A stretch of 64,000 bases of DNA, taken from positions 2,305,001 through 2,369,000 of the forward strand of contig NZ_CP102384.1 in the NCBI RefSeq assembly GCF_024628865.1. Reading direction: 5' to 3'. Every line of letters begins with the position of its first letter. Position 1 is the first letter of the stretch. The DNA comes from Sphingopyxis sp. DBS4 (GTDB lineage: Bacteria > Pseudomonadota > Alphaproteobacteria > Sphingomonadales > Sphingomonadaceae). The notes beneath the pieces are model-generated. The model searched no databases. It was not told where the DNA came from and saw nothing but the letters and a program-made list of their open reading frames with translations. The translations under genes and the position numbers were made by a program. Shown here piece by piece: positions 30,613 through 37,003 of this stretch.

Positions 30613-31263
30613 ATGAACCTGATCAAATCAAAAAAGCGCGTTGCCGATCATGGGGAGGTGTTCACGCCGCCTTGGTTGGTCGAGCAGATGCTTGACCTTG
30701 TAAAAGGGGAAGCGGAGCGCATCGACGCACGTTTTCTTGAGCCTGCTTGCGGCAGTGGCAATTTCCTTGTGCCGATCCTGCAACGCAAATTGGCCGCAGT
30801 GGAATTGAAGTTCGGCAAGTCTGACTTCGAGAAGCGGCATTATGCGCTGTATGGCTTGATGTGCGCCTACGGGGTGGAGTTGCTGGAGGATAACATCGCG
30901 GAATGCCGGGCCAACATGCTGGACATTTTTGCCGACTATCTGGGGTTGGACGAGGCCGATGACCTTTATCGCGCTGCTGCCCACGTGCTTTCGCTCAACC
31001 TTGTGCATGGGGACGCGATGACAATGCGCGGGATTGACGGCAATCCAATCACCGTTGTGGAGTGGGGCTATCTGGGCAAGGGCAAATTCCAGCGCCGCGA
31101 TTTCCGGCTTGATGTGCTGACTGGCATGGCCAGTTTCAGCGCCGAAGGGTCGCTGTTTGCAGGGCTTGGCAAGCATGAGATTTTCACCCCGGCCAAAAGC
31201 TATCCGCCGATGACCGTGCCCGATCTGGCGGCAGCGTTTGATGGCTTGGGGGCCGCAGCATGA
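30613..31263 (+). CDS. Small DNA methyltransferase-like protein (AdoMet motif, no NPPY)
   Basis: 216 residues. GEVFTPPWLVEQMLDLV (motif X-like), FLEPACGSGNFLVPIL (motif I, AdoMet binding), YGVELLEDNIAECRANML (motif II/III region) and LNLVHGDAMTMRGIDG are typical of N6-adenine DNA methylases. The catalytic NPPY motif is absent, and the protein stops where it would be expected to continue. The gene overlaps the next one by 4 bases (ATGA). It is therefore probably one half of a two-chain enzyme or an AdoMet-binding partner. It has lower GC content than the relaxase gene. Confidence 0.78.
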   Translation: MNLIKSKKRVADHGEVFTPPWLVEQMLDLVKGEAERIDARFLEPACGSGNFLVPILQRKLAAVELKFGKSDFEKRHYALYGLMCAYGVELLEDNIAECRANMLDIFADYLGLDEADDLYRAAAHVLSLNLVHGDAMTMRGIDGNPITVVEWGYLGKGKFQRRDFRLDVLTGMASFSAEGSLFAGLGKHEIFTPAKSYPPMTVPDLAAAFDGLGAAA

Positions 31264-32915
31264 ACGAACCGGCCAGCTTTGCCCTGCGCGGGCGCAATCC
31301 CGATGTGCTGACCTGCATTGCCAATCTATCGAACGACGAGGTTTTCACGCCGCCCGAATTTGCCAATCGGATGCTGGACACGCTGGCGCAGGCTTGGGCG
31401 GAGAGCCATGCCGGTGCGGACATTTGGGCGAATAGTTCGGTCAGGTTTCTGGACCCGTTCACAAAATCGGGCGTGTTCCTGCGCGAGATTGCAAAGCGCC
31501 TGATCGCAGGGCTTGAAGCGGAGATTCCCGACCTTCAAACGCGCGTAGATCACATCCTTACGCAGCAAATCTTCGGCATCGGCATTACGCGGCTGACCAG
31601 CCTGCTGGCGCGCCGCAGCCTCTATTGTTCCAAGCACGCCACGGGCAAATATTCCATTACCAGTTCGTTCGAGAATGATGATGGGAACATCTGGTTTCAG
31701 CACACCGATCATTCGTGGGTCGGCAGCAGCAAATGGACCAATGTTACCGACAAGCATGGCAACACGGTCAAGAAGTTTGCCGAAGGCAAGGACGGCAAGT
31801 GTGAATTTTGCGGGGCACCGCGCGCTATCTTTGATCGTGGCCCAGAGCTGGAAAACCACGCTTACGCTTTCATCCATACCAATGACATTAAGGCTCGCAT
31901 CGGCGAGCTGTTCGGAGCCGATATGCAGTTTGACGTGATTATCGGGAACCCACCGTATCAGTTAAAAGGCGGGGGCGGAGGATCGAATGACTCCTCAATC
32001 TACCACCTTTTTGTCGAGCAGGCGATGGACTTGGAGCCTCGATTCCTGTCCATGGTTGTTCCATCCCGCTGGCTGGCAGGCGGTCGAGACATGGGTTCAT
32101 TCAGGAAGCGGATGTTTACCGATGGGCATATTCGCGAGTTAATAGACTACACGAAAATGAGCACCGCTTTTCCCGGCGTCGATTTCGAAGGCGGAGTCGG
32201 CTATTTTCTATGGGACAGAGAAACCACTGGTTCATGCCGGTACACCCTCTTCCAAGGGGAGGAAGAGCTGCCAACCGTCGAGCGGAATCTCGACCAGCAT
32301 GACATTTTCGTGCGCGATACGCGCGCGCTCTCCATTCTTGAAAAGGTTCTTGCCAAACGTGAGGCGACGCTGGAATCAGTCGTGAGCGGCGATACTCCAT
32401 TTGGCTTGGCTACAAATTTCACAGACTATTCAACGAAAAGCAATCCCGGCACGCTTTCAATTTATCTGACTGTGAAAGGGCGGCGCACGACCGGCTGGGT
32501 GGACGATTCAATCATCAGAAAAAATCGCCAACTGATACCAAATTGGAAGGTGTTGTTACCTGAAGCATACGGTGAGCGAGGAGCCATTCCCGCAATGGTC
32601 CTCGGCCCTCCGATTATAGCCGTGCCAAATTCAGTATGCACTCAAACATACCTTGTGGCTGGTCCTTTTGTCTCTGAAACAGAGGCGCGTAGCTTTACAA
32701 GTTACTATCGCACGCGTTTGTTCAGATTTCTGGTTTCTTTGAGAAAAATTACCCAGCACGCGCTTCGATCAACCTATACTTGGGTTCCGCAGCAGTCGTG
32801 GGATGCAAATTGGAATGACGCGGTTCTATACAAAAAATATGGATTAGCCGAAGAAGAAATAGCTTACATTGAAAGCATGATACGCCCGATGGACGGTGAC
32901 CTGTTCGATGAGTAG
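31260..32915 (+). CDS. Eco57I-like restriction-modification methylase
   Basis: 551 residues. DEVFTPPEFANRMLDTL and FLDPFTKSGVFLREIAKRL are a variant motif I lacking the second Gly of the usual GxG. A Cys pair (CEFCGAPRAIF) occurs near residue 180, and the catalytic motif DVIIGNPPYQL near residue 222 fits adenine-N6 methylation. The region after about residue 390 is probably target recognition; its DNA is clearly more AT-rich than the first part. It overlaps the GIY-YIG/helicase gene by 8 bases. It may act only with the small upstream protein. Confidence 0.82.
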   Translation: MNEPASFALRGRNPDVLTCIANLSNDEVFTPPEFANRMLDTLAQAWAESHAGADIWANSSVRFLDPFTKSGVFLREIAKRLIAGLEAEIPDLQTRVDHILTQQIFGIGITRLTSLLARRSLYCSKHATGKYSITSSFENDDGNIWFQHTDHSWVGSSKWTNVTDKHGNTVKKFAEGKDGKCEFCGAPRAIFDRGPELENHAYAFIHTNDIKARIGELFGADMQFDVIIGNPPYQLKGGGGGSNDSSIYHLFVEQAMDLEPRFLSMVVPSRWLAGGRDMGSFRKRMFTDGHIRELIDYTKMSTAFPGVDFEGGVGYFLWDRETTGSCRYTLFQGEEELPTVERNLDQHDIFVRDTRALSILEKVLAKREATLESVVSGDTPFGLATNFTDYSTKSNPGTLSIYLTVKGRRTTGWVDDSIIRKNRQLIPNWKVLLPEAYGERGAIPAMVLGPPIIAVPNSVCTQTYLVAGPFVSETEARSFTSYYRTRLFRFLVSLRKITQHALRSTYTWVPQQSWDANWNDAVLYKKYGLAEEEIAYIESMIRPMDGDLFDE

Positions 32916-36071: not shown

Positions 36072-36079
36072 GGAACTAA

Positions 36080-37003
36080 ATGCCCATACCCGCCGACTTT
36101 GCAGCATTCGATATTGCAGGCGCGGCGATGACCGTGTGGGCGTTCAAAAAGTCCGGTGGGGCGGGAGGAGCCGCACCAACCTTTTCGGGGCACTGGGTTG
36201 CGACCGACCCCGCTTTGGAGGCGGCTGTCAAAGCAGCAGTCCAGCAACGGCGCGCCGCTATCGAAGAGGTCAATCCCTACGGCCTGTTGGCTCAAAACAA
36301 TGAAGCGAGCGCGTTATCAATTGGTGCAAATGAGACCTACGCCGATAGGATAGTTGCCGCCACAGCCGATCCCTTGCCACAGCGGCGAGCAACAACTCTT
36401 CGCCATATTCAAAACACAGACTTCTATGTGATAAAATTGGTTAGTGGTGGGGTCACGCTCTATGCGGTTCGGAAAGCGGATTCATCATGGCATACCAAAA
36501 AGAGAACAAAAGCAATTGACGCTCTCTTCCGTGATGAAACCTTGACGCTCGAACCTGCGCCTGCATTTTCATTGTCGACATACGTTGATTTCTTCATCTT
36601 CGATGGCACGATCTACATGCTGGACAAAGGGCATTTTGAATCCGTTCTCAGTTATCGACAGGCGCACGCAAATCAGTTCATCGCGCTACAGGCCGAGCCA
36701 GCTTTCAATGCCATTTTCACCGATATGGCACCGCTTGTAGCCTACATAGGCACGAACAAAATCCAGCTTCGCAGAGCGTGCGCAATCGAACTGAAAGGGC
36801 ACTACCGCGATAATGACTTTATGTTGCGGCTGCGGCAACGCTTCCTGCAACTCCGTTTGAATATTATTTTCGATGCAAACGGAAAAATTGTGCCCACGCC
36901 AGAGACATGCGCCGACATTATGACCGCACTCTTGGACCACCGGCTGTCCTCCGCGTTCTCGGAGGCCATATACGACGTGCCCGATGCTGTAGCTGTGGTC
37001 TGA
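36080..37003 (+). CDS. kwaB: Kiwa-like DUF4868 protein KwaB
   Basis: 307 residues, cytosolic. The stretch YVDFFIFDGTIYMLDKGHFE (near residue 180), then SVLSYRQAHANQFIALQAEP, and RRACAIELKGHYRDNDFML resemble the DUF4868/KwaB family. An N-terminal domain with ATTLRHIQNTDFYVIKLVSG precedes it. In the Kiwa system KwaB works with membrane KwaA against phage DNA. The gene follows kwaA by 8 bases and shares its lower GC content, so the pair was probably acquired together. Confidence 0.7.
   Translation: MPIPADFAAFDIAGAAMTVWAFKKSGGAGGAAPTFSGHWVATDPALEAAVKAAVQQRRAAIEEVNPYGLLAQNNEASALSIGANETYADRIVAATADPLPQRRATTLRHIQNTDFYVIKLVSGGVTLYAVRKADSSWHTKKRTKAIDALFRDETLTLEPAPAFSLSTYVDFFIFDGTIYMLDKGHFESVLSYRQAHANQFIALQAEPAFNAIFTDMAPLVAYIGTNKIQLRRACAIELKGHYRDNDFMLRLRQRFLQLRLNIIFDANGKIVPTPETCADIMTALLDHRLSSAFSEAIYDVPDAVAVV

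Follow-up and report, generated by a model that had tools for sequence, protein, structure and literature searches.

The described restriction-modification (RM) system closest to the genes considered here is DrdVI of Deinococcus wulumuqiensis 479. In the genome paper, M1-2.DrdVI is listed as an N6-methyladenine (m6A) methylase of type IIG with the recognition site GCAGCC, and the methylase genes were cloned and expressed. A paper on Methanococcus assigns MaeIV to the 'split methylase/RM' family of DrdVI and reports that cloned M1 and M2 together methylate GCACY. Kiwa is a defence system consisting of KwaA and KwaB; as described in a 2026 review, membrane KwaA tetramers and KwaB dimers build a lattice, and KwaB binds injected DNA without cutting it. 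Genes resembling both systems lie side by side in the window analysed here, a stretch of 64,000 nucleotides of Sphingopyxis sp. DBS4 (contig NZ_CP102384.1, positions 2,305,001 to 2,369,000 of the forward strand). Very probably, these are two separate known systems, a DrdVI-type trio (M1, M2 and R) and a kwaA-kwaB pair, carried one behind the other as cargo by a single integrative mobilisable element.

The five open reading frames (ORFs) of the run are all located on the plus strand of the window, at 30613..37003:

M1, 30613..31263, plus strand: half methylase of 216 amino acids with motif X VFTPP and motif I EPACGSGNF, no NPPY
M2, 31260..32915, plus strand: Eco57I-type gamma m6A methylase with NPPY, an altered motif I DPFTKSGVF and a variable C-terminal target-recognition region
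R, 32908..35481, plus strand: GIY-YIG (T5orf172) nuclease fused to a superfamily 2 (SF2) translocase with AKMRFGKT, DEYH and SGTP
kwaA, 35493..36071, plus strand: Kiwa membrane protein (PADLOC PDLC00215, 4.6e-68)
kwaB, 36080..37003, plus strand: Kiwa DNA-binding partner (PF16162, 1.6e-25; PDLC00237, 1.8e-117)

M1 and M2 overlap by 4 bases and M2 and R by 8 bases, or by 20 if the in-frame GTG at 32896, at which the ORF list begins R, is taken; gaps of 11 and 8 bases follow between R and kwaA and between kwaA and kwaB. The G+C content is 57.0% for M1, 52.8% for M2, 55.9% for R, 43.9% for kwaA and 53.1% for kwaB, compared to 64.6% for traD-traA, 59.7% for ardC-parB and 63.5% for the window. In all of these respects, namely coordinates, strand, spacing and a higher AT content than that of the flanking genes, a preliminary description of the locus was confirmed, as was its placement of the run in a mobile element, which carries an exact 47-bp repeat and genes for TraD, a TrwC relaxase, ArdC and a tyrosine integrase.

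Family assignment of the five genes

Pfam domains were detected in the products of genes 1 to 3: N6_Mtase in M1 (5.6e-5), Eco57I in M2 (3.5e-31), and T5orf172 (4.2e-5) and ResIII (1.3e-6) in R, both of which exceed the Pfam cut-offs. The plasmid pDrdVI (L006) carries the same M1-M2-R order with tblastn identities of 77%, 51% and 68%, respectively, and R and M2 match two parts of the single fused enzyme profile PDLC03626 (positions 180-676 and 993-1358). At least 8000 relatives each of R and of M1 are present in the protein database. Judged from homology and gene order, genes 1 to 3 are a DrdVI-type RM system and hence of a kind already published. The preliminary description had stated that no described system has this exact set. 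This may hold for all five genes, since no description of a DrdVI-type system paired with Kiwa was found in the open-access literature, judged by titles and the starts of abstracts; it does not hold for genes 1 to 3. The idea of an undescribed helicase-methylase set was rejected because pDrdVI has the same order and homologous products and DrdVI is already in print.

The window trio shares with DrdVI the order of the three genes, the split methylase, the GIY-YIG/translocase fusion and an identity of 68-77% for R and M1. It differs in M2 residues 300-545, which are only 37% identical; the recognition site therefore probably differs as well and could not be predicted from M2. Unlike the window, pDrdVI has no Kiwa genes within the 12983 bases that were viewed. 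LlaBIII and other type ISP enzymes resemble the trio in their one-strand m6A logic and their DNA motor, and the M2 model resembles 4xqk_A (E 5.6e-8); however, the window system is made up of three polypeptides and an ISP enzyme of one. ISP enzymes presumably also carry another nuclease in the place of the GIY-YIG domain. The OspHL35III-type IIG-like systems likewise have methylase, translocase and GIY-YIG nuclease functions spread over three proteins, but their nuclease is separate and their methylase is a single MmeI-like protein. MaeIV, which is placed in the same family by its published description and not by sequence comparison, is archaeal (Methanococcus aeolicus) and has a different site, GCACY. 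The source genome itself holds a second DrdVI-type trio (G000:C1:1224959-1227487; L031, L049), which is 71-72% (R), 84-87% (M1) and 60-62% (M2) identical to that of the window and has no Kiwa within the 16 kb fetched; residues 300-545 of its M2 are 52% identical, and the two recognition sites probably differ.

The methylase motifs were compared across 22 separate M1 genes and 23 M2 rows; the L036 row of the M1 set, which proved to be the M2 gene of this locus, was dropped, as L036 has no separate M1 within its short fetched stretch, and the L033 row of M2 comprises only the first open piece of 264 residues. Motif I of M1 reads EPACG(S/N)GNF in 22/22 genes, none of which (0/22) contains an NPPY-like motif, and NPPY is kept in all 23 M2 rows, next to a motif I of the form DPxxKSG(V/I)F. 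A hidden Markov model profile of M1 matches residues 14-63 of M.BseCI, the region of motif X and motif I (E 0.0012). The structure model of M1 alone (mean predicted local distance difference test score, pLDDT, of 62; residues 1-48 under 50) has no PDB match at E <= 0.001 and, as a poor model, speaks neither for nor against an active site shared with M2. The fold of the M2 model (mean pLDDT 73) resembles CamA, BrxX, M.TaqI and LlaBIII, and no solved chain was matched by the M2 sequence profile. In 18 of the 22 other M2 rows, residues 300-545 are 37-54% identical to the window, compared to 75-81% over residues 1-150. Of the other four, L032 is near-identical, the open piece of L033 ends before this region, and L007 and L036 diverge more strongly, with 40 and 42% over residues 300-545 against 55 and 58% over residues 1-150. 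A C-terminal location of the target-recognition region would lead one to expect such a divergence.

In R, all 21 rows compared (L007 and L036 were left out) keep the motor motifs AKMRFGKT, DEYH and SGTP, and five residues of the GIY-YIG part, Y20, G38, R48, D78 and E100, do not vary across 23/23 rows; which of these residues are catalytic follows from general knowledge of the GIY-YIG family. Since the other strand of GCAGCC contains no adenine, the DrdVI pair can N6-methylate one strand only, which favours M1 and M2 acting as one enzyme rather than as one enzyme per strand. Type III and ISP enzymes are described as working by this principle, the modification of one strand together with a motor, and a collision-type cleavage is therefore proposed for R.

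Genes 4 and 5 are assigned to Kiwa by their profile matches. The PADLOC match of KwaA covers positions 1-191 of 196, the solved KwaA chains 9o0i and 9mrg are matched at E about 6e-4, and the hydropathy profile has four maxima, two strong and two weaker. KwaB, whose gene follows kwaA directly, scores 90.7 bits against PF16162 (DUF4868/KwaB), well over the cut-off of 26.3. Both genes, their order and their families thus agree with the described Kiwa system. However, KwaA has no Pfam match and its NCBIfam score of 43 bits is below the cut-off of 100, and no solved chain was matched by the KwaB sequence at E <= 1; the window Kiwa therefore belongs to a distant subfamily relative to the model system. 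No relatives of KwaB were found in viral contigs.

Separate occurrence of the trio and Kiwa

The distribution of both systems was analysed in 396 genomes of the order, from which stretches of 10.4-16 kb were fetched around 14 other full-length R places and three other kwaB places. R is present in 16 of the 396 genomes, 14 of which have full-length copies at 15 places and two short fragments, and kwaB is present in four, in one of them by a partial match. The trio was found at 14/14 of the other full-length R places and kwaAB beside none of them (0/14), and the trio was found at 0/3 of the other kwaB places. Only one of the 13 other genomes with a full-length R (G285) has kwaB, and there it is located on a different contig. 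In a class-level sample of 385 genomes, kwaB occurs solely in the source genome, and R in five: the source genome, G583 (full-length, 51%) and three with partial matches. PDLC00237 gave a single match across 148 relatives, again the source genome, and 0/14 in control genomes.

A similar picture emerged from plasmids, where 79 records have an R match, 37 of which cover 80% or more. Seven R records were viewed: the whole trio is present in 5/7 and kwaAB in 0/7, and of the remaining two, one has an R with neither M1 nor M2 in the stretch viewed and one is cut at the record end. The former (L005, plasmid pCRULAC2) has its R next to a transposon region that contains genes for aminoglycoside resistance. 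Nine plasmid records with KwaB were found; six of these were viewed, and the trio is present in 0/6. Among the named genome loci with KwaB in the scan of close relatives, the trio is present at two of four (L032 and L033) and absent at L034 and L035; at the latter, a Mesorhizobium locus, kwaAB lies near a gene for a 5-hydroxymethyldeoxyuridine (5-hmdU) DNA kinase helical domain protein and a coupling protein gene. In L056 (G266, 3591-9067), HamA and two DEAD/helicase ORFs precede kwaAB, all on one strand, which is a Hachiman-like arrangement and another case of Kiwa stacked behind a different defence system. Conversely, a related element in G349 (L047; relaxase 61%, ArdC 44%) carries the trio without Kiwa, with ArdC on the other side of the trio.

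The full run was found in three genomes, namely that of the window, L032 (a Sphingopyxis contig of a metagenome-assembled genome, MAG; all five products 95-99% identical to the window) and L033 (a Novosphingobium MAG contig), all on one element backbone. It would be conceivable that the five genes form a joint system, in which methylation marks self DNA, while incoming DNA is held at the membrane by Kiwa and cut at that place by the GIY-YIG translocase. The tight packing on one strand, which is kept in all three genomes, is in line with this proposal, which is nevertheless highly unlikely, because both halves are found alone in relatives and because the three occurrences share a backbone and thus point to one origin rather than repeated selection. 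Co-occurrence across unrelated elements, by which a single joint system would be recognised, was seen neither at the other R places nor at the other kwaB places. Taken by themselves, three occurrences of one origin neither show nor exclude an association above chance. The preliminary description had left the choice between two stacked systems and a joint one: the separate occurrence in relatives supports the first option and speaks against the second, and the independent presence of the parts in related elements, which it had itself named as an argument against coupling, was observed. Its suggestion that the methylated state guides the helicase-nuclease is ordinary RM logic and needs no Kiwa.

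Allele difference in M2 and R

L033 differs from the window in an uneven manner: identities of 92% (relaxase), 97% (M1), 94% (kwaA), 97% (kwaB) and 90% (ArdC) contrast with 70% and then 40% along M2 and 71% for R. At the DNA level, identity drops in early M2, recovers at the R-kwaA junction and dips to 80-85% inside kwaA. The R protein of L033 is 88.6% identical to that of the Kiwa-free locus L052. When 22 R proteins were placed in a maximum-likelihood tree, two changes of the Kiwa label were required; a single change sufficed in 0% of 200 bootstrap trees, and 68/500 label shuffles are as clustered as the observed labels; the tree shows only that Kiwa-linked R proteins are not one clade. The simplest reading is that recombination swapped M2-R between conserved flanks. 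Such an exchange of M2-R beside constant kwaAB argues against Kiwa being finely co-adapted to M2 or R and is a further point against the joint system, which was rejected on this ground together with the separate occurrence of trio and kwaAB. A co-transcribed, layered arrangement, in which incoming DNA gathered by KwaAB at the membrane would be surveyed by the restriction complex encoded in the same operon, tolerates an exchange of M2 and R; it is considered very unlikely, and a functional coupling of Kiwa with the trio is unsupported. The separate occurrence in relatives, the allele difference and the common backbone together suggest that trio and Kiwa assort independently and that the observed adjacency traces to one lineage.

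The genes could also be decaying cargo, which is carried along while some of them are inactive. A frame change interrupts M2 of L033, and kwaB of G145 (L057) is apparently truncated, matching over residues 1-151 only behind a kwaA that matches full length. However, the five frames of the window are open, the methylase, motor and GIY-YIG motifs are kept, and L032 retains all five genes, so that this possibility is regarded as very unlikely.

The element and transcription of its cargo

The run is flanked by features of a predicted mobilisable element:

attL-like repeat, 23233..23279, plus strand: 3' half of tRNA-Pro (23201-23277); exact 47-bp match to 44454-44500
TraD-like type IV coupling protein, 25926..27761, plus strand: PF10412, 5e-136
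TrwC-family relaxase-helicase, 27761..30526, plus strand: PF08751, 2e-95
ArdC-like anti-restriction protein, 37278..38318, plus strand: longest ORF; PF08401, 9e-40; PF18818, 8.4e-50
tyrosine integrase of the element, 43026..44264, minus strand: PF00589, 1.5e-29
attR-like repeat, 44454..44500, plus strand: DNA homology to L032 ends at 44498

Between the repeats lie genes for the coupling protein, the TrwC-type relaxase, the five genes of the run, an ArdC-type gene (the tblastn query for which began at 37416, inside the longest ORF), a serine recombinase, two ParB/RepB genes and the tyrosine integrase. L032 is 97.8% identical at the DNA level over 26080-44498, where homology stops at the right-hand repeat; on the left side, it reaches the edge of the fetched locus. 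The region is thus an integrated mobilisable element of about 21.2 kb, for which excision and transfer are predicted. In L033, window positions 37001-37200, between kwaB and the ArdC gene, are mostly missing or different, and about 600 additional bases are located ahead of M1; the cargo borders are variable.

Promoter- and terminator-like patterns were scanned over 30300-37700 and their counts set against shuffled sequence. Neither is above chance: five terminator-like sites, all of them within M2 or R, were found against a shuffle mean of 8.7, and five promoter-like sites against 4.1. As the preliminary description had stated, no terminator-like pattern occurs between the genes of the run; a promoter at 35481, which it had named as a point against a joint transcript, did not show up either, the R-kwaA gap containing no promoter-like pattern. 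The best promoter-like site (10 of 12) lies inside kwaA at 35676-35704, with another one inside kwaA at 35794-35823, and the site ahead of the run is weak:

sigma-70-like promoter pattern upstream of M1, 30535..30563, plus strand: 9 of 12; pattern numbers not above shuffles

Because the patterns are no commoner than in shuffled sequence, transcription can be judged from spacing only; since kwaA has just 11 bases of upstream space, a single transcript for the run is plausible. Independent mechanisms might therefore profit from co-expression from one promoter, with restriction acting first and Kiwa as a backup against phages with modified DNA, an explanation that is compatible with stacking. The short gaps, the lack of terminator-like patterns and the weak site before M1 are in agreement with it; however, the promoter patterns are not above chance, the best one is inside kwaA and not before M1, and kwaAB has other neighbours elsewhere. 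Such a benefit is possible, though its probability is well short of even.

If the two systems work side by side, M1 and M2 together would methylate one adenine in an asymmetric site, with the specificity set by the variable C-terminal part of M2. At unmethylated sites, the M1-M2 complex would let R load and travel along the DNA, driven by its SF2 motor; its GIY-YIG domain would then cut, probably upon the encounter of two enzymes, as in type III and ISP systems; translocation and collision cleavage are deduced by this analogy. KwaA in the inner membrane would sense the phage attack, and KwaB would bind incoming DNA and block its replication and late transcription. Both systems may share a transcript, yet each would protect alone, the activity and independence of these copies being assumed. 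The methylation by cloned M1 and M2 of DrdVI and MaeIV and the Kiwa mechanism are taken from the literature; the observations made here concern the gene content and its family assignment, the motifs, the ends of the element, the independent occurrence and the M2-R allele difference.

Several points weigh against the stacking of two separate systems. L033 is a MAG contig in which the M2 frame is broken, and assembly could account for part of its allele difference; its copy of the element differs by about 7-14% in DNA and yet keeps the run, which speaks at least for a stable neighbourhood. A true operon would also agree with the tight spacing and with an R-kwaA gap that lacks promoter-like patterns. 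The scan of genome contigs for the full run reaches close relatives only, and further copies may exist among the metagenome relatives of KwaB, seen without their context (five at 83-88% identity and others from 74% down among the best 120 of 415). Finally, the texts used for DrdVI describe methylation and annotation, but not the cleavage itself.

On balance, the locus looks like ordinary defence stacking and not like a new joint system. It suggests that an integrative element gathers defence systems and varies its restriction specificity, with M2-R alleles that differ between near-constant M1 and kwaAB. The most valuable by-product of the analysis is the division of motifs between M1 and M2, which draws attention to a little-studied split methylase with the canonical cofactor loop in one subunit and the catalytic NPPY and the target-recognition region in the other. 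Given the abundance of R relatives, a shared active site of M1 and M2 would be a general question, although the locus itself is ordinary.

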